Shown piece by piece: positions 1 through 8,919 of a stretch of DNA of 50,671 nt. The notes under the pieces are model-generated. The model did no database searches, was not told the origin of the DNA, and was given only the letters and a program-made list of their open reading frames with translations. The translations under genes were made by a program, and so were the position numbers. The number at the start of each line of letters is the position of its first letter. Within the stretch, counting starts at the first letter, position 1. Origin of the DNA: a bacterium (lineage in GTDB: Bacteria > SZUA-79 > Acidulodesulfobacterales > Acidulodesulfobacteraceae); assembly GCA_021845685.1 (NCBI GenBank), contig JAJZVN010000014.1, forward strand, positions 1-50,671, written 5' to 3'.

Positions 1-1388
1 GCGCATATCAATGCAAGAAAATTAACGCCTTTATTGTCCATTACCTCTTTGATGACCTGCATTTTAGGCATAGAACCTGCAATCCTTACATTCATTACTT
101 CGTCCGTAAGTATTCCGCCGCCGGCACCGCAACAGTAGGTCTGCGCCTTGTTAGCCCCATCCCTTAATTCAAAAAAATGATTGGCGCACGCTTTTATCAG
201 TTCTCTCGGTATAGTAAGTTGACCGTCCTGCGTCTCACCCATTCTTGATGCACGCGCAACATTACATGAATCATGATAGGTAACTATCTTGTCGTCGTTT
301 GCCGATGGATCCATCTTAATAACCCCGTCTTTGATAAGACCAAGCGTAAAATCACATATATGCGTAGGCTGCCTGTATTTGCCGTCAAGAAAATCAAACG
401 GTCCGTTCATTGTATTACTGAAATTATACAAAGCTCTCCATGCATGACCGCATTCACCTACGATAACCCTCTTAACCTTAAGTCTTCTTGCTTCATCCCA
501 TACTCGTTTATTTATTTCTTTTGTATTCTTGTAACTGCCGATAAACATACCAAAATTACCGGCTTCCGATGCATAAGAAGAAACCGTCCAGCTTATGCCG
601 GCTTTATAAAATACCTTTGCATAACCGATTAGAGATTCCATGTGCGGCATAGCAAAAAAATCAGCGGATGGCGGAACAAGAAGAATTTCGGCGCCTTCCA
701 CATCCATAGGAATTTTAATATCCTTTCCTGTAGCATCTTTTATTTCTTCTTCAAGATCATCTAACGTATTTCTGAGCGCAGCAGGGGGGATGCCAAGATT
801 ATTTCCTATTTTGAAAACTTTATGTATTATTTCGGTAGCATATTTTTGTCCTATACCTATACCATCCATAATCTCCCTTGCAGCCATTGTTATTACAGCC
901 GTATCTATTCCGTACGGACAGAAATAAGAACATCGCCTGCATTCCGAACACTGATAGTAATACGTAAACCATTTTTTAATCATTTGTTCGCTAAAAGGCT
1001 CGGCATCTGCCAGACCTTTAAAAAGACTGCCTGCGGGTGTAAAATAGTATCTATAAACTCTTCTCATTAATTCAGCCCTGCCTACAGGCATGTTATTTGA
1101 ATCACCGGTACCCAAAAAAAATTGACATTTATCGGTACAGGCACCGCATCTAACGCAAATGTCCATGTAGGTTTTAAGCGCTTTATTGTGAGTTAAAAGT
1201 TGTTTAAAAATTCCTACCGCTTTAGTTTCCCATCCATCTTCCAGCGACGCTGGGAAGCCGATTGCCAGCATATCTTCCTTTACACCCGGATACATCTTTT
1301 CGTAAGCGCTTGCACCGGGAACAACCTTAGGAATCTTAATCTCTCCTGTTAATATCGGAATTTTATAAGACGCTTTTATTTTAGCCAT
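1..1388 (-). CDS. dsrK: DsrK, heterodisulfide-reductase-like subunit (3' end outside window)
   Basis: Read on the minus strand from ATG at 1388, with a GGAG Shine-Dalgarno a few bases upstream; it stays open through about 462 codons to the window edge, so the C-terminus is missing. The translation shows two ferredoxin-type Cys motifs (CVRCGACTDKC and CSECRRCSYFC) followed by HdrD/CCG-domain signatures (YHDSCNVARAS and YCCGAGGGI). This is the DsrK arrangement: an iron-sulfur protein on the cytoplasmic face of DsrMK(JOP) that carries the catalytic [4Fe-4S] cluster acting on oxidised DsrC. It follows dsrM by 35 bases and is the last visible gene of the dsr operon. Whether dsrJOP follow cannot be seen. 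Family assignment is firm. Confidence 0.95.
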   Translation of the reverse strand, partial: MAKIKASYKIPILTGEIKIPKVVPGASAYEKMYPGVKEDMLAIGFPASLEDGWETKAVGIFKQLLTHNKALKTYMDICVRCGACTDKCQFFLGTGDSNNMPVGRAELMRRVYRYYFTPAGSLFKGLADAEPFSEQMIKKWFTYYYQCSECRRCSYFCPYGIDTAVITMAAREIMDGIGIGQKYATEIIHKVFKIGNNLGIPPAALRNTLDDLEEEIKDATGKDIKIPMDVEGAEILLVPPSADFFAMPHMESLIGYAKVFYKAGISWTVSSYASEAGNFGMFIGSYKNTKEINKRVWDEARRLKVKRVIVGECGHAWRALYNFSNTMNGPFDFLDGKYRQPTHICDFTLGLIKDGVIKMDPSANDDKIVTYHDSCNVARASRMGETQDGQLTIPRELIKACANHFFELRDGANKAQTYCCGAGGGILTDEVMNVRIAGSMPKMQVIKEVMDNKGVNFLALIC

Positions 1389-1423
1389 TACTTTATCTCC
1401 TGTTTATCTTTATTGTTTTCCCT

Positions 1424-2200
1424 TTAAAGACTCAAATCTTTTGCACCTGGCTTATAATATCTTTCTTCCTCCGGATTATCCGTCATATAACGGGTAGGAC
1501 TAAAAAATACGCCTACAAAATGCATAACTTTGCTAAAGGGTATATATGCGACAAGTATAAGAATTAATGAATAATGAACAAGAAAATACGGATTGCTCGG
1601 TATATTTATTGGATGAAATGTGGCAATACCGTTAATAAACGGATCTAATCTGTTATCTATTTTCGTAAGATCAGAAGCAGAAATTAAAAAATTCATAGAC
1701 AATCCTGCAATAGCTATCATCATTAAAATAATAAGTATTAAATAATCCGATAAAAGAGAGATAATTCTCACTCTGTCAACGATCATCCTGCGAAAAAGCA
1801 GATAAAATAGCGAAAGAAACATTAAAATACCGAAAACTATGCCTGCGTTCACAAAGAGCGGATACCATGAAGGCAGCGAAACAACACCGTTATGATAATG
1901 ATAAATAAAATGCCGGGCAAAATGCAGCAATATAAGAATAATAAATGAAACATGGAAGATATATCCTGCAACCCATGTAGGCTTATTTGCTCTAAATAAA
2001 CTCTTAAATAATAAAATTTCGCTTGCAACCCTGCCGACTGAACCTGTTTTTGTCTGGGGTGCAGGCGTAAGTGCAATCTTTACCGGCATTGGCGTCTTGG
2101 CATACACGATTATTTTAATCAAAACACCGATTATAAAAATAGCGGCTGCAAAATATGTTAATAAAACATACACGCCGCTCAAGAAGTTTAAATCTATCAT
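1424..2200 (-). CDS. dsrM: DsrM, membrane cytochrome b subunit
   Basis: A 258-residue, mostly hydrophobic protein with about six membrane segments. It resembles the NarI-type cytochrome b family to which DsrM belongs. Histidines in helices (HVSFII, LLHFARHFIYHYH, HYSLIL) are candidates for haem b ligands. In the family, DsrM oxidises menaquinol and passes electrons to DsrK. AGGAG precedes the ATG at 2200. It is somewhat shorter than many DsrM proteins (often above 300 residues), but no truncation is evident. It directly precedes dsrK, which supports a minimal DsrMK module. It is separated from dsrC by about 200 bases containing a strong hairpin. Confidence 0.92.
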   Translation of the reverse strand: MIDLNFLSGVYVLLTYFAAAIFIIGVLIKIIVYAKTPMPVKIALTPAPQTKTGSVGRVASEILLFKSLFRANKPTWVAGYIFHVSFIILILLHFARHFIYHYHNGVVSLPSWYPLFVNAGIVFGILMFLSLFYLLFRRMIVDRVRIISLLSDYLILIILMMIAIAGLSMNFLISASDLTKIDNRLDPFINGIATFHPINIPSNPYFLVHYSLILILVAYIPFSKVMHFVGVFFSPTRYMTDNPEEERYYKPGAKDLSL

Positions 2201-2275
2201 AATTGAATCTCCTTTAATACTCGTTATGCCTTTTTAAAATAAAAAACACTCTATTATATATAATATATTGCAGCT

Positions 2276-2303
2276 GCAAGGCATGCCGTAAGGCAAGCCT
2301 TGC
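2276..2303 (-). other. Intercistronic hairpin between dsrC and dsrM
   Basis: A near-perfect palindrome: 2276-2282 (GCAAGGC) pairs with 2297-2303 (GCCTTGC). Inside, after a single A/A mismatch, TGCC (2284-2287) pairs with GGCA (2292-2295) around a four-base GTAA loop (in the + orientation). No T-run follows in the direction of transcription, so it does not look like an intrinsic terminator. A 3'-stabilising or processing hairpin after dsrC is more likely, which would fit the high DsrC:DsrMK ratio known in sulfate reducers. The pairing is seen directly; the function is inferred. Confidence 0.6.
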
Positions 2304-2396
2304 AAAAAAGACATATTTTATTTATACGCAATTTTAACTAAGCTGCTACATAATACATAATATATGTTTAATATTATACTAAAGACATTTTTTTAT

Positions 2397-2738
2397 TTAT
2401 ACACAGCCAGTAGGTTTTGGAAGACCTGCTATCATGGCAAGCTGCTTAGCCGGCCCATCCGGAAAAAGTTCGTAAATAAACTTATTTGCTTCTTTTTTGT
2501 CCTCAATATTTTCAAGCTTTTGTACCTCTTTTATTAGAGATTTAATTGCAGGAGCAACCTGAAACTTTGAAAAATAGTCCCTTATCCAATTAATTAACTC
2601 CCAATGCTTTTCTGTAAGTTCTATACCTTCTTTCTTGGCAATATATACGGCCATATCTTTATTCCAATTATCTAAATTCTGCAAGTATCCTTCATCATCA
2701 GTTTCTATTACCTTACCGTTAAATTCAAATGATGCCAT
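2397..2738 (-). CDS. dsrC: DsrC/TusE-family protein lacking CysB
   Basis: A 113-residue member of the DsrC/TusE family. It begins with the family pattern (ETDDEGYL, then W, then LTEKHWELINWIRDYF) and ends in the conserved arm AGLPKPTGCV, so the penultimate cysteine (CysA, C112) is present. Family DsrC proteins have a second cysteine (CysB) 11 residues earlier, in a GPAKxxC context. Here the arm reads GPAKQLAM, with alanine (codon GCC) at residue 101, and the protein has no other cysteine. That one-cysteine pattern is typical of TusE, yet the gene sits between dsrL and dsrM in the dsr operon. AGGAG precedes the ATG. It could be a dsrC that lost CysB, or a TusE-like protein recruited to the operon. 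Confidence 0.93.
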   Translation of the reverse strand: MASFEFNGKVIETDDEGYLQNLDNWNKDMAVYIAKKEGIELTEKHWELINWIRDYFSKFQVAPAIKSLIKEVQKLENIEDKKEANKFIYELFPDGPAKQLAMIAGLPKPTGCV

Positions 2739-2799
2739 GGCTCAAATTCTCCTATTATTATAATTAATTTAATTAATATTATAAAAAAATATTAAATTT

Positions 2800-4509
2800 T
2801 TAAATCATATCAATATAGCCGCAAGGGCAACTTTCTGCGCATTTTTTACACCCGTTGCATGTTTCTAGATGAAACTCAAAATGCTGACCTTTAGGCAATT
2901 TTTTAACCGCGCTTTGAGAACAATATTCAAAACAGCTGCCGCAATCAAAACACATACCGCAGCTCATACATCTCTTTGCCTCCAAAATTAAATCATTTAA
3001 ATCTAGATTATTTAAAATCCCATCAAAATCATTAATTCTAACAGAAGGCTCTCTTGAACTTCTTTTATGTCTCTCCGCATTTTGAAAATATGCTATATAC
3101 ATATTCTTACCTTCGCGGTTTATTGCATCGTCATACTTTATGACGGCTCTTTCATCTTTCTTGATTGACTCCCCGCTTAATTTTTTATGTATTGAATATG
3201 CCGCATATCTCCCCATTCCTATTGCATCGGTTACTAAACCAAATTTTAAAATGTCGCCTCCGGCAAATACTTTATCCTCATTAGCCACTAAATAGTCTTC
3301 ATCCACATTAAGAAATTCATTATTTGGATTTTTTGTAAGTTTTTCAAGACCCTTATAATCCGGTTTCTGACCGAAAGAATAGATAAGAGTATCCAATTTT
3401 AACATTAATTCAGGACCGTTTTCTATTAAAATAGGATGCACCCTGCCCGAAGCATCTTTTTCGGAAAGTTTCATTTTTTTAAGGCGAACAGCAACAGCTT
3501 TTCCATTTTCAACGATAATTTCGTCTAAAGCAAATAAAAATTCAAATTTGATTCCCTCGCTATTGCCTTCCTTAACCTCGGTAGAGCCTTTTTCCTCTAT
3601 TTCCGAAACATCGTTTAATGTTCCTTTATTGTAAATAAATGTTACATTAGCGCCAAGTCTTTTTGCAACCATTCCTGCGTCCATTGCACTGTCGCTTCCT
3701 ATGACCACAACCTCTTTCCCTGCATCCTTAATTTCTCTTGATGCAGCCTTTTCAAGAAATTCAATGCCTGTAAAAACATTAGGCGCATCTGCGCCTTTCA
3801 TTTTCATCTTAATAGGTTCATGTGTCCCGATTGCAACAAATACGGCATCATACTCGGATTTAAGTTTATCTATCGTTACATCGGTTCCGATATTTACACC
3901 TGTTTTTATTTCAACGCCAAGGTCTTTAATTCGGTTAACCTCTGCATCTATAATATCTAAAGGAAGTCTAAAACTCGGTATGCCGTATCTTAGATAACCC
4001 CCTGTTTCAGGAAGTTTTTCATAAATTGTAACATTATATCCCCTTATCGCAAGATGATAAGCACATGAAAGCCCTGCGGGTCCGCTGCCGATAATTGCTA
4101 TTCTTTCTTTTTTTGGAATGTCGGTCATTTTCTTAAAATGAAGATTATTTTTTATTCCATAATCACCGACAAACATCTCTATAGAATTAATAGCAACAGG
4201 TTTATCCTTAAACTTACGATTACACTCTTCTTCGCATGGATGAGGACAAACCCTCCCGGTTATGGACGGCAAAGGATTTGACTCAGTAAGCATATAAAAT
4301 GCTTCTTTAAGAGATTCATCAATCGGTCGTTCATAAGACTCACTTTGAGCAATAAATTGTATATAATCCCTAACCCTTGTTCCATTAGGACAAGTGTCCA
4401 TACATGGAGGTTTCTTCTCTACATATTTAGGTCTAAAGGGTGACTGCTGCATTCCCCCGCCTGAGCTTGACACTTTTAGCGGTTTTTTAACTTTTTTTAA
4501 TTCAAGCAT
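2800..4509 (-). CDS. dsrL: DsrL, NAD(P)H:acceptor oxidoreductase with C-terminal ferredoxin domain
   Basis: A 569-residue protein of the glutamate-synthase small-subunit (GltD) family. An N-terminal Fe-S region has CMDTCPNGTRVRDYIQ and GRVCPHPCEEEC. It is followed by an FAD Rossmann motif (IIGSGPAGLSCAYHLA, about residue 135), an NAD(P)H site (VVVIGSDSAMDAG) and a C-terminal pair of ferredoxin motifs (CMSCGMCFDCGSCFEYC and CNGCKKCAESCPCG). In the family, DsrL exchanges electrons between NAD(H) and DsrAB. The forms beside reductive DsrAB and DsrD are thought to feed NADH electrons into sulfite reduction. It lies between dsrD and dsrC. The domain order and context fit DsrL better than a generic GltD; the reductive direction is inferred. 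Confidence 0.88.
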   Translation of the reverse strand: MLELKKVKKPLKVSSSGGGMQQSPFRPKYVEKKPPCMDTCPNGTRVRDYIQFIAQSESYERPIDESLKEAFYMLTESNPLPSITGRVCPHPCEEECNRKFKDKPVAINSIEMFVGDYGIKNNLHFKKMTDIPKKERIAIIGSGPAGLSCAYHLAIRGYNVTIYEKLPETGGYLRYGIPSFRLPLDIIDAEVNRIKDLGVEIKTGVNIGTDVTIDKLKSEYDAVFVAIGTHEPIKMKMKGADAPNVFTGIEFLEKAASREIKDAGKEVVVIGSDSAMDAGMVAKRLGANVTFIYNKGTLNDVSEIEEKGSTEVKEGNSEGIKFEFLFALDEIIVENGKAVAVRLKKMKLSEKDASGRVHPILIENGPELMLKLDTLIYSFGQKPDYKGLEKLTKNPNNEFLNVDEDYLVANEDKVFAGGDILKFGLVTDAIGMGRYAAYSIHKKLSGESIKKDERAVIKYDDAINREGKNMYIAYFQNAERHKRSSREPSVRINDFDGILNNLDLNDLILEAKRCMSCGMCFDCGSCFEYCSQSAVKKLPKGQHFEFHLETCNGCKKCAESCPCGYIDMI

Positions 4510-4565
4510 GAAATCATCCTCATAATTCTATAATATAATTTAAGATTTATAATTTTACAATTTAC

Positions 4566-4802
4566 TTAATCTTTGCCAGGAAGGGTTAAGAAACTTCCTC
4601 CTGCATATCCGTAGACTAACTTCTCGTCATTCATTATTTCTTTTAGAACGCCTTTAATATCGTCTTTTGATAAGCCCTCGTCGGCAAATTCTTTTTCCAT
4701 CTCTTTCACTATATCTACAGGCTTAAATCTTTTTTTGCCGACATACTCCTTGACAAGTCCGATAATTTTATCTTCTAGCTTCTTTTTTATTTCATCGGTC
4801 AT
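4566..4802 (-). CDS. dsrD: DsrD, activator of dissimilatory sulfite reductase
   Basis: A 78-residue winged-helix-size protein (KRFKPVDIVKEMEKEF ... YGYAGGSFLTLPGKD) positioned immediately after dsrB, the usual site of dsrD. DsrD is known to stimulate sulfite reduction by DsrAB and is found with reductive-type enzymes, not with the oxidative ones of sulfur oxidisers. Its presence therefore supports a sulfite- or sulfate-reducing direction. GAGAGGG lies upstream of the ATG. The spacing to dsrB (25 bases) and to dsrL (56 bases) is consistent with one transcript. No unusual residues are seen. Confidence 0.92.
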   Translation of the reverse strand: MTDEIKKKLEDKIIGLVKEYVGKKRFKPVDIVKEMEKEFADEGLSKDDIKGVLKEIMNDEKLVYGYAGGSFLTLPGKD

Positions 4803-4827
4803 AATATTTCCCTCTCATTTTATTATA

Positions 4828-5913
4828 TTAAAATCTTACTTGAGATGAATAATTCATAGTGGTTTCGGCAAGTCTGAAATCGTCCACATGATATTTTGTA
4901 AATTCAAATCCCGTTATTTTAAAGAATCTCGTCCAGCCTATCCTTTCAATCCATTCTACAACTCTTTCTCCAGGTTCGGCTCCATTTTTATAAGCGGTTA
5001 TTATTGTCTTTACAGCCTCGACAACCTTCGGCCATCTTGGCGGATCATTCGGTATAAAAGGGATGACTAATTTGGAAAATGTAGGCTTAATCCTTGCATT
5101 TGAAACTTTTCCGCCTACCCATATGGAAATACCATCGTTTAATGAGTCTGCAATAGGCATTGCAGGGCAAACCGTATAGCAGCTTCCGCAAAAAACGCAG
5201 GTTTCATCATTTATTTTTACGGTCTGCTTACCGTCTTTAGTATCCGGTCTTATAGAATTTGTAGGACATGCTGCAATAGTGCTCGGTATTTCACAGAGAT
5301 TTAAAATTTTTTCACTGTCTATTTTCGGCACTTTCCTGTGCATTCCCATTATCGCAATATCAGATGAAGCAACAGAACCGCACATATTAAGACAGCACGC
5401 AAAAGCAATTCTAACTTTAGACGGAAGTTTATCCTCCACAAAGTACTCATATAATTCATCCATTACAGCCTTTACTACGCCGGATGCATCGCTTGCCGAT
5501 GTATGACAGTGGACCCAACCTTGCGTATGAACGATATTTGCAACGACATTTCCAATACCGCCGACATTATAGCCTAATTTTTCAAGGTCTTTTTTAAGAG
5601 GCTCTATATTATTTTTGTCATCAAGTAAAAATTCAACATTATTTCTTGTGGTAAACCTTAAATATCCTCCGCAATATTTATCAGCCATATCACACAAATC
5701 TCTCACAAAACTGCCGCTAACCAAACGGGGGGAACCCATTCTTACGGTATATATCTTGTCCCCATTCTCCGCAACATGTACCATACTGCCGGTATCCAAT
5801 ATTTCATGGTAAGCCCACTTGCCATAATTCTTTTTAATTACAGGCGGTAAATAATCATGAAAATCATGGGGACCTATATCTGTTATTCTTTTCTTTTTAA
5901 CCTCTTCAGGCAT
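4828..5913 (-). CDS. dsrB: Dissimilatory sulfite reductase subunit beta
   Basis: About 361 residues. The siroheme/[4Fe-4S] ligands are visible as [14 protein letters not shown] and ACCLNMCGS, and the inserted ferredoxin domain as [15 protein letters not shown]. These match DsrB, the subunit that carries the catalytically active siroheme in the alpha2beta2 enzyme. An in-frame TTG lies at 5925, but GGAGG stands five bases before the ATG at 5913 (MPEEVKKK), so the start is placed there. It follows dsrA by about 75 bases. The gene is intact and of normal length. Confidence 0.97.
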
Positions 5914-5988
5914 AAAAACCTCCAAATATATATATGCTATCTTTTAATTAGATTTGATTAAATTTAAAATAATTTATCTGCAGCTGAA

Positions 5989-7176
5989 TTAGTCTTCATC
6001 ATCCGTAAACTTTATAAACGGGTTGCCTCTTGGATGATTAACCATTTCAGGTATAGGTTCTAATCCTATTCCTTCAAGGAAAGTTACGACTCCTACTCTC
6101 TGCATAAGCTCTCCTATCCTTTCTCTGCTGACGCCGTATTCATCCCAGAACTCCCACATATTGCTGATTAACCCTTTCAGCCATTCATAGTCGTTTTTGC
6201 TGTCTTCTAAAACATCGTAAAACGGAACAAGCATCATACCTAATCTTGGACCTGTAACTAAAGGAGCTTTAGCGCCTAATAAAATAGAAAGACCTTTTTC
6301 ATCGCCGGATCTTAAAGCCTTCGGCATTTCATTTATGCAATGCATACACTTAACGCAATTAGAATCATCTATGACTAGATTCTCTCCTTCAAACAACATG
6401 CACTTAGTCGGACATTTATCTAAAACATATTTTTGAACATTAAATTTTTTAACATAATTTTTTACTTCATCTTGATTTATTTTTATTTTATCCTTCCATG
6501 TTCCTATAAAAGCCATATCCGACCTTGAAGCGGCCGCAACGCAATCATTTGAGCATCCGGAAAATTTAAGTTTAAACTTATAATTAAATGAAGGTCTATG
6601 CATTTCATCCTGGAATGCCTGCGTCATGTCATAGCATATCTGGAGTGTATCATAATTTGCAAACTCACATCTTGCAGGTCCGACACAGCAGGATGGCGTA
6701 CGAAGATCTGATCCGCCGCCGCCTAAATCGAATCCTAATTCTGCACATTTCTGAAAAGCTTCTTCGGCTTCCTCTTGCCATACTCCTAATATTTGAATAT
6801 CCCCCGTTGATCCATGAAGATTTAAAAGTCCGCCCGCATGTTGTTCCGCTATATCGGCAATTTTTCTAAGAATATCGGAATTATAAAAAAAACCTGAGGT
6901 TTGATTAACTCTCATAGAGTGGCATTCTTTAACGCCTGGGTATTTTTCGGGAAATTCTGTAAATCTTCCGACAAGTCCTGCGCCGTATCCCCTTACCCCG
7001 GCCATACCGCCATGCTTCCAATGGGTGATCTTGTCTCTATAGGAATTTTCCACCTGTCCTAAGAGATCTTCCGTTCTTTCGCTTTTTTCAGCTGCTCTTT
7101 CAATTTCCCTAACAAAACTTACCCACTTCCCCTTTTTTAGCTCATCAAGAAGCGGAGTTTCATGTTTCTTACCCAT
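5989..7176 (-). CDS. dsrA: Dissimilatory sulfite reductase subunit alpha
   Basis: A 395-residue DsrA. Siroheme-cluster ligands appear in the conserved contexts TPSCCVGPARCEFANYDT and FSGCSNDCVAAASRSDM. The ferredoxin domain ligands are CPTKCM and CVKCMHCINEMP. AAGGAGG directly precedes the ATG at 7176. It is the first gene of the operon, preceded by a 260-base gap with a promoter-like element. With DsrB it catalyses the six-electron reduction of sulfite, or forms the DsrC trisulfide when a two-cysteine DsrC is available. Length and motifs are normal. Confidence 0.97.
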   Translation of the reverse strand: MGKKHETPLLDELKKGKWVSFVREIERAAEKSERTEDLLGQVENSYRDKITHWKHGGMAGVRGYGAGLVGRFTEFPEKYPGVKECHSMRVNQTSGFFYNSDILRKIADIAEQHAGGLLNLHGSTGDIQILGVWQEEAEEAFQKCAELGFDLGGGGSDLRTPSCCVGPARCEFANYDTLQICYDMTQAFQDEMHRPSFNYKFKLKFSGCSNDCVAAASRSDMAFIGTWKDKIKINQDEVKNYVKKFNVQKYVLDKCPTKCMLFEGENLVIDDSNCVKCMHCINEMPKALRSGDEKGLSILLGAKAPLVTGPRLGMMLVPFYDVLEDSKNDYEWLKGLISNMWEFWDEYGVSRERIGELMQRVGVVTFLEGIGLEPIPEMVNHPRGNPFIKFTDDED

Positions 7177-7279
7177 AAAAAACCTCCTTAAAAAAATATA
7201 AATTAAAATAACATTTAAAAAACACTATGTAAATAATATAAATAAATAATATTTACTAATTAATAATCATCAATAAATT

Positions 7280-7331
7280 AACGGCACGTGAAGCATCACC
7301 CTCAATATAAATATTTTTGCTTTTTGCCGTT
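7280..7331 (-). promoter_or_regulatory. Nested hairpin in the dsrA leader
   Basis: Two nested perfect stems lie between the candidate promoter and dsrA. The outer stem pairs AACGGCA (7280-7286) with TGCCGTT (7325-7331). The inner stem pairs AAGCA (7291-7295) with TGCTT (7318-7322). The surrounding sequence is almost pure AT, so these GC-containing arms stand out. This could be a regulatory RNA structure, or a terminator of dsrN (7438 is its stop), since it lies downstream of dsrN as well as upstream of dsrA. No known riboswitch class is recognised. Confidence 0.45.
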
Positions 7332-7369
7332 TGTGTTTGATTAATAAATTAAAATAGGAGTCATATATA

Positions 7370-7399
7370 TAATAAATAATTTTATATGCATATTGTCAA
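7370..7399 (-). promoter_or_regulatory. Candidate sigma-70 promoter for the dsrA operon
   Basis: On the minus strand a perfect -35 box TTGACA occupies 7399-7394. It is followed after 17-19 bases by AT-rich -10-like hexamers (TTTATT or TATTAT around 7370-7376). No better -35 was noticed in the gap between dsrN and dsrA. It would give a transcript with an approximately 190-base leader containing the nested hairpin. A TTGACA can occur by chance, and AT-rich DNA always supplies a -10, so confidence is moderate. Confidence 0.45.
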
Positions 7400-7437
7400 G
7401 AAAAAAATTGTAACAAACTAAAAAAATTTAACATTAT

Positions 7438-8919
7438 TTATTTTATTTTTAAAAAATCTTTTTTGATTTCTTTGATAAAAGACACCCAATTTTTAAACCA
7501 TCCGGGCGAGGATGGAGAAAATATATGCGTATAACTTGCAATTATATTTTTATAGATAATGCCGTCGCTTTCTCCATTTACCCCAAATCCCTTTTCCACG
7601 TTAAAAGCAAAATTCATGTTATTTGACGACGGTGTTTCTAAATATGAATGGTGGAACTCATGTCCTTTAATAAATTTAATCTTATTAAACCATAATCGGC
7701 TATTTTTATCATAAAAGGCAGTAGTTAATTTGGTATAGCCATGCCCTTTCGGTTTTTTTGTCCATTTTACATCGGCATCTATTGCCCCCACCATTTCATA
7801 CATAATATCATCACAGGAAATACTTTTGCAAAGATACATAAGGCCGCCGCATTCCGCATATACAGGAAGACCTATTTCGATCTTTTCCCTTATATTCCTC
7901 CTTAAATTGCTGTTTGTCTCTAAATCCTGACAAAAAATCTCTGGAAAACCTCCTCCTATATAAAGAGCATCAACTTCAGGCAGGTTACCGTCTTTAAGCG
8001 GGGAAAATCTTATAATTTCGCAACCCAAATTCTCGAGCGCTTCAATATTTTCATTATAATAAAAATTAAATGCGCCGTCATAGGCTATCCCAATTTTTAC
8101 TCTTTCTCTAACCCTGCCGGATTCTATTTTTTTAGGAGGTGCGGCAGGTGCGGCAGATGCAGTAATAATATTATATTTTAAACTTACATCGACATAAGAT
8201 TTGGCTGCTATTTTTGATATATTTACGATACCTTCTAAATCAATATAATTTGAAATTTTAGAGGATATATTTGAAACAAGATTTTCAACGTCTTCTCCTC
8301 TAAGTGTCGACAGCAGACCGAGATGCCTCTGTTTTATAGATAATTCTAGGTCGTTAGGGATATTGCCTACTACCTTTAAATCGGTATAATAATTAATTGC
8401 GTTTATTAGATTTTTTTCATGTCTTTTACTATGAATCTTATTTAGTATTATCCCTTTTATATTCACCTTTTTGTCGAAATTTCTAAATCCTAAAAGCAAT
8501 GGGACAACTCCTCTGTTAAATTCTCCGACATCTATCACAAGAATGACGGGAAGCCTTAAAAGCTTTGCCATAGATGCGTTTGAAGATTTACCGTACAGAT
8601 CTATAGAGTCATACAGCCCATGGTTTCCTTCTATAATGTTAATATCTGAATTAAGCGAATGTTCTAAAAAATGTTTTTTTATTTTATCTTTGGACATAAA
8701 ATAAAAATCCAGATTATAGCAGTTTTTACCCGTAGCTATGCTTAGCCACATCGGATCTATAAAATCAGGACCTTTTTTAAAAGACTGGACTATAAACCCT
8801 TTATTTCTTAGCAGGCGCATTATAGCGATAGAAATGGTCGTCTTGCCTGAATTTCTTTTTGCTGCAGATATATAAAATCCTTGCATTTTATAATTTTTAT
8901 TCTCAGAAATATTTTCCAT
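7438..8919 (-). CDS. dsrN: DsrN, CobB-type siroheme amidase
   Basis: A 493-residue protein of the cobyrinic acid a,c-diamide synthase (CobB) family. The N-terminal P-loop ATPase domain (AAKRNSGKTTISIA) is followed by a class I glutamine amidotransferase domain with the nucleophile in YAECGGLMYL and a late histidine region (GHEFHHSYLE). Next to dsrAB this family is DsrN, which amidates siroheme to the siroamide used by DsrAB. Its start overlaps the preceding small gene by 17 bases, so it is translated with zwf and that gene instead of with dsrA. A role in cobalamin synthesis cannot be excluded, but no other cob genes are in the window. Confidence 0.88.
   Translation of the reverse strand: MENISENKNYKMQGFYISAAKRNSGKTTISIAIMRLLRNKGFIVQSFKKGPDFIDPMWLSIATGKNCYNLDFYFMSKDKIKKHFLEHSLNSDINIIEGNHGLYDSIDLYGKSSNASMAKLLRLPVILVIDVGEFNRGVVPLLLGFRNFDKKVNIKGIILNKIHSKRHEKNLINAINYYTDLKVVGNIPNDLELSIKQRHLGLLSTLRGEDVENLVSNISSKISNYIDLEGIVNISKIAAKSYVDVSLKYNIITASAAPAAPPKKIESGRVRERVKIGIAYDGAFNFYYNENIEALENLGCEIIRFSPLKDGNLPEVDALYIGGGFPEIFCQDLETNSNLRRNIREKIEIGLPVYAECGGLMYLCKSISCDDIMYEMVGAIDADVKWTKKPKGHGYTKLTTAFYDKNSRLWFNKIKFIKGHEFHHSYLETPSSNNMNFAFNVEKGFGVNGESDGIIYKNIIASYTHIFSPSSPGWFKNWVSFIKEIKKDFLKIK

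Follow-up and report, generated by a model that had tools for sequence, protein, structure and literature searches.

The window, a stretch of 50,671 nucleotides that forms the entire contig C9 of its genome, carries a dsr operon on the reverse strand in the order dsrN-A-B-D-L-C-M-K. Two of the genes, dsrN (7438–8919) and dsrD (4566–4802; 78 residues), were assigned from their open reading frames and by operon comparison. The dsrA product (5989–7176; 395 residues; TIGR02064, E = 7.8e-146) has intact siroheme and ferredoxin cysteines, and dsrB (4828–5925) encodes 365 residues from a TTG start, with an in-frame ATG four codons downstream. These are followed by dsrL (2800–4509; 569 residues), of the group named DsrL-2 in PMC7596348, by dsrC (2397–2738; 113 residues), by dsrM (1424–2200; 258 residues), which is syntenic in Ca. 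Acididesulfobacter diazotrophicus AP1 and at other loci, and by an SOB-type dsrK (3–1388), whose C-terminus is cut by the contig end and whose iron-sulfur and CCG cysteines are intact in relatives. The dsrE, F and H genes are located on a separate contig, C165. Throughout the family, every locus long enough to display gene order reads N-A-B-D-L-C-M-K-E-F-H, and dsrL is present in every operon long enough to include it.

An inverted repeat lies in the gap between dsrC and dsrM (2276–2303, reverse strand). As RNA, the surrounding stretch (2255–2330) folds at −25.6 kcal/mol (z = −3.5). The repeat possibly protects the dsrC transcript, and it was not found in the same form in AP1.

A DsrC without CysB

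The dsrC product belongs to the DsrC family, as indicated by its match to PF04358 (E = 1.1e-39) and by a profile match of 1.9e-35 with the solved DsrC 1yx3. With canonical DsrC (PDB 1yx3, 1sau, 2v4j) it has in common the PF04358 domain, the operon context, a penultimate CysA and the C-terminal GLPKPTGCV. However, canonical DsrC has a second cysteine, CysB, where the window protein has alanine. Its C-terminus reads FPDGPAKQLAMIAGLPKPTGCV, in which Cys112 of 113 (codon 2403–2405) is CysA and the sole cysteine of the protein, and Ala101, 11 residues earlier, occupies the CysB position. The initial annotation had described both the alanine and the lack of a second cysteine, and had placed the gene between dsrL and dsrM; translation and reading-frame coordinates agree on each point. 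Its placement of the alanine codon at 2433–2435 needs correction, since those letters encode Met102 and the Ala101 codon, GCC, lies at 2436–2438. With one cysteine, an intramolecular trisulfide or disulfide is impossible in this protein.

A PF04358 search of the 3.04-Mb genome (96.3% complete, 199 contigs) found no second DsrC-family protein, so that the complete two-cysteine copy suggested earlier as one explanation did not appear. The closest relative of the gene, in AP1 (dS 0.19), also has alanine at this position. Among the best 22 loci of a contig scan, the alanine is encoded by GCC in 8, GCT in 8 and GCA in 6, indicating that the residue is maintained. Three synonymous codons, together with the alanine of AP1, exclude a sequencing error for practical purposes. 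The dsrC gene is under purifying selection (median dN/dS 0.055 over 44 pairs).

Distribution of the one-cysteine form

The survey of related genomes that had been proposed for this substitution found it family-wide: the CysB position is alanine in 24 of 24 aligned DsrC proteins from 6 genera of Ca. Acidulodesulfobacteriota. The same best 22 loci of the contig scan, AP1 included, all lack CysB, whereas it is present in each of the next 58 (Nitrospirota and others, ~50–60% identical). Nearly all family members have a single DsrC, and no CysB-bearing copy was found in the 23 dsrC-bearing family genomes, several of which are 97–100% complete. Judged from these sequences, the one-cysteine dsrC is a family-wide trait and neither an error nor a stray paralogue.

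Across the family, dsrAB and dsrC are present and absent together, with one exception. Both dsrA and dsrC are missing from G001, G003, G004, G005, G006 and G027, while G025 has dsrA and no DsrC match; its dsrB looks truncated, probably by a contig end. The first five of these genomes are species of one genus that retain aprA and mnmA.

To place the trait against its background, DsrC was searched for in other dsrA-bearing genomes, and was found in 25 of 26; all 25 have a CysB-bearing copy except G262. We also applied two motif patterns, which separated known sets perfectly (non-Cys, 22/22 and 4/4; Cys, 58/58), to the 297 genomes of the sulfate-reducer phylum of G051. The CysB motif occurred in 147. 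The non-Cys pattern, which is limited to codons with A or G in first place and so would overlook some residues, matched once, in G641; this genome has the CysB form as well, and the match looks like chance.

The exception, G262, led to a second order. Some genomes of this order have a dsr operon with dsrC between dsrL and dsrM; four of them, three from a single genus and one from a sister family, have valine at the CysB position of the operon DsrC (L141, L147, L153 and L151). CysA is invariant in the alignments of both the family and this order. The valine proteins are 54–55% identical to the window DsrC and, unlike it, are accompanied in the three genus genomes by a second CysB-less DsrC, with alanine at the position. 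In a tree that has few columns, a single TusE and long branches elsewhere, the operon DsrCs of both orders group as a single clade (99/95) that includes neither E. coli TusE nor the second copies. The copies outside the operons, namely the second copies of the genus and those of the sister family (L136, L146, L152 and L148–L150), all lack CysB and are grouped apart from the operon copies.

This second order is very probably Desulfurellales, and the genus of G386, G387 and G262 very probably Desulfurella, because D. amilsii is described as having two dsrC genes and dsrA, B, C, M and K in matching order and spacing, and because dsrAB is reported to be missing from Hippea (PMC5317093). Thiosulfate use, probably via DsrAB, has been reported for D. 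amilsii. Neukirchen et al. placed the DsrC of Desulfurellales and Ca. Acidulodesulfobacterales together, basal to the oxidative type; the main text of that paper does not mention the cysteines (PMC10504309). Two features differ within the genus. In G262 (L141, L154), but not in G386 or G387, the reading frames of dsrL and dsrK are broken into several pieces; if G262 is D. acetivorans, this could account for a reported absence of thiosulfate respiration. G387 has a fragment matching the first 115 aprA positions (G387:C9:35055–35396), either a remnant or contamination; its two genus-mates have no aprA.

A putative one-cysteine cycle and its alternatives

The two-cysteine trisulfide described by Santos et al. 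is generally accepted as what couples sulfite reduction to energy conservation. In the canonical cycle, DsrAB uses two donor electrons and two more from the CysA and CysB thiols, yielding a CysA-S-CysB trisulfide that DsrMK reduces with four electrons. With a single cysteine and a CysA persulfide as product, DsrAB would need four electrons and DsrMK two. On balance we lean slightly toward this reading, in which the window protein is a true DsrC of the Dsr pathway and functions through a persulfide on CysA alone. DsrAB, given four electrons that would probably come from NAD(P)H through DsrL, would take sulfite to the level of a CysA persulfide (DsrC-S-SH), and DsrMK would reduce the persulfide with two menaquinol electrons to H2S and free DsrC. 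In the oxidative direction, DsrE would load sulfur onto CysA through its conserved cysteine, and DsrC would pass the sulfur to DsrAB.

We infer this chemistry and electron split from an anatomy that is itself plain. CysB is absent throughout the lineage. CysA has been retained, as have the catalytic cysteines in DsrA, B, K, L and E. In the family, almost no variation occurs at the cysteines that bind siroheme and iron-sulfur clusters in DsrA and DsrB, at those of the iron-sulfur and CCG motifs in DsrK or at those that serve iron-sulfur binding in DsrL, and DsrE Cys77 is conserved in 20 of 20. The operon is conserved, dsrC is under selection and is absent where dsrAB is absent, and the operons of a second order have the same CysB-less trait. 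Of the three readings offered by the initial annotation (a second DsrC, a TusE-like or regulatory role and a one-cysteine cycle), the last is the best supported, with its chemistry still conjectural; the sharing of the trait by the whole family and by a second order had escaped it.

Published work bears on the proposed cycle in both directions. In A. vinosum, CysA by itself suffices to bind sulfane sulfur and sulfite and to take sulfur from DsrE; CysB was dispensable for these steps, in experiments confined to binding and transfer, short of turnover with DsrAB or DsrMK (PMC3397948). With DsrC as co-substrate, proteins of the DsrL family deliver electrons from NAD(P)H to rDsrAB (PMC7596348). 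Against the cycle, the A. vinosum authors gave CysB the task of releasing sulfite from CysA-sulfonate (PMC3397948), for which a one-cysteine DsrC would need another route. A further weak point is that DsrL alone does not make CysB dispensable, since dsrL operons with a CysB-bearing DsrC exist; the chimeric operons L171, L165 and L169 have dsrL and an SOB-type dsrK, yet their DsrC retains CysB. A putative loss of DsrJOP was also considered as a cause. Archaea such as Pyrobaculum are known to have DsrMK only, and Pyrobaculum DsrC (1ji8) retains CysB, which makes that explanation unconvincing.

Extended to all members, the one-cysteine reading describes a trisulfide-free, sulfite-reducing and possibly reversible Dsr pathway with a one-cysteine carrier, four electrons entering via DsrL and DsrAB and two at DsrMK, fixed throughout a phylum and shared by a second order, to which the cultured genus Desulfurella probably belongs. 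We put this wider proposal forward tentatively, as somewhat short of an even case. In the open literature, with some key papers outside its scope, we found no published statement of a one-cysteine exception among DsrC proteins of dsr operons. A lineage with complete dsr operons breaks the two-cysteine rule, so the need for CysB can be tested in nature. Sequence filters that require both cysteines will drop real Dsr organisms, among them acid-mine-drainage bacteria proposed to run the Dsr pathway both ways. If the one-cysteine cycle operates, the predicted energy yield changes, each sulfite then drawing on two menaquinol electrons where the canonical cycle uses four, and the sulfur cycle would be closed differently in acid-mine bacteria and very probably in Desulfurella.

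The strongest alternative, although an unlikely one, is that DsrC serves oxidation only: DsrEFH would load CysA, DsrC would deliver to DsrAB, and any sulfite reduction would be a six-electron reaction of DsrAB and DsrL without DsrC. In its favour, DsrC is not needed for DsrAB to reduce sulfite directly to sulfide (PMC6470260). The DsrE cysteine never varies, DsrK is of the SOB type, and DsrC branches basal to the oxidative-type proteins (PMC10504309). Moreover, the C-M-K-E-F-H block differs in relatedness from A-B-D-L, as if exchanged as a unit. However, dsrD, whose product activates sulfite reduction (PMC10591310), is always present, and the Desulfurella-like genomes retain a like DsrC beside dsrL and dsrM. 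No close DsrE was found in G386 and no aprA in G262 or G386, so oxidation to sulfate by the DsrEFH-DsrC route is not expected there. As a separate observation on the DsrEFH proteins, DsrH position 20, a cysteine needed in A. vinosum, is occupied by alanine, serine or phenylalanine in 14 of 18 members of the family, in contrast to the invariant cysteine of DsrE.

Rather improbable is a trisulfide closed in trans, in which the partner of CysA would be the CysA of another DsrC molecule (giving a DsrC-S-S-S-DsrC homodimer), one of the DsrK cysteines Cys345 and Cys465, or a small thiol. The DsrK of all members does have these two additional cysteines, which are absent from reductive-type DsrK. Both are also found in SOB-type DsrK proteins that are paired with a CysB-bearing DsrC (L098, L105, L107–L110, L165 and L169), and are therefore not specific to the loss of CysB; we rejected them as a compensation for it and regard them as a general SOB-type trait. 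A search for DsrK among solved structures gave no match.

Very little probability attaches to the idea that DsrC chiefly regulates DsrAB, or acts on it allosterically, and takes no part in covalent sulfur cycling. The DsrC family does include members without a two-cysteine role, and one cysteine is left here, but that cysteine, CysA, is invariant in all members, and a purely structural role would not require it. RspA is a cysteine-free DsrC-like regulator; judged by that definition, the window protein differs in its invariant CysA.

Even less can be said for a TusE-type carrier of tRNA thiolation that sits in the operon by chance. Like E. coli TusE (b0969), the window DsrC has only CysA in its C-terminal arm and a small, non-Cys residue at the CysB position, and its C-terminal GPAKQ..KIAGLPKP resembles TusE (GPAKQATKIAGLPKPVKCI). 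The two also share the long form with an insertion, which is found in oxidative-type DsrC as well. In contrast to TusE, the window DsrC is encoded in a dsr operon, as is dsrC at every family locus seen, and it groups in a separate clade of the tree. It is absent with dsrAB instead of being retained with mnmA: five sister species without dsrAB have no DsrC-family protein, yet mnmA was found in all five, so tRNA thiolation seems not to need DsrC. On these grounds we reject the TusE role, which the initial annotation had entertained. Phage-encoded dsrC/tusE-like genes, of which 112 sequences retain CysA alone, are auxiliary genes without a dsr operon and have been read as TusE-like (PMC8190135).

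The least credible explanation, a two-cysteine DsrC hidden in the unassembled part of a genome that is 96.3% complete in 199 contigs, or an alanine created by assembly, fails because no CysB-bearing copy was found among the 23 dsrC-bearing family genomes, some 99–100% complete, and because independent assemblies have three synonymous alanine codons at the site, which for practical purposes rules out assembly error.

Relatedness of the operon segments

The operon (window 1–8919) was compared with loci L032, L035, L037 and L039–L052. Its A-B-D-L segment is nearest to L039–L052, with DsrA 82–88% and DsrL 84–86% identical, and its C-M-K-E-F segment is nearest to L032, L035 and L037, with DsrK at 86–90% versus 76–78%. 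The operon thus looks mosaic, as if a crossover had occurred between dsrL and dsrC. One family genome, G019, contains two different dsr operons on contigs C168 and C108, one of each operon type, reflecting either a real duplication or contamination of the bin.
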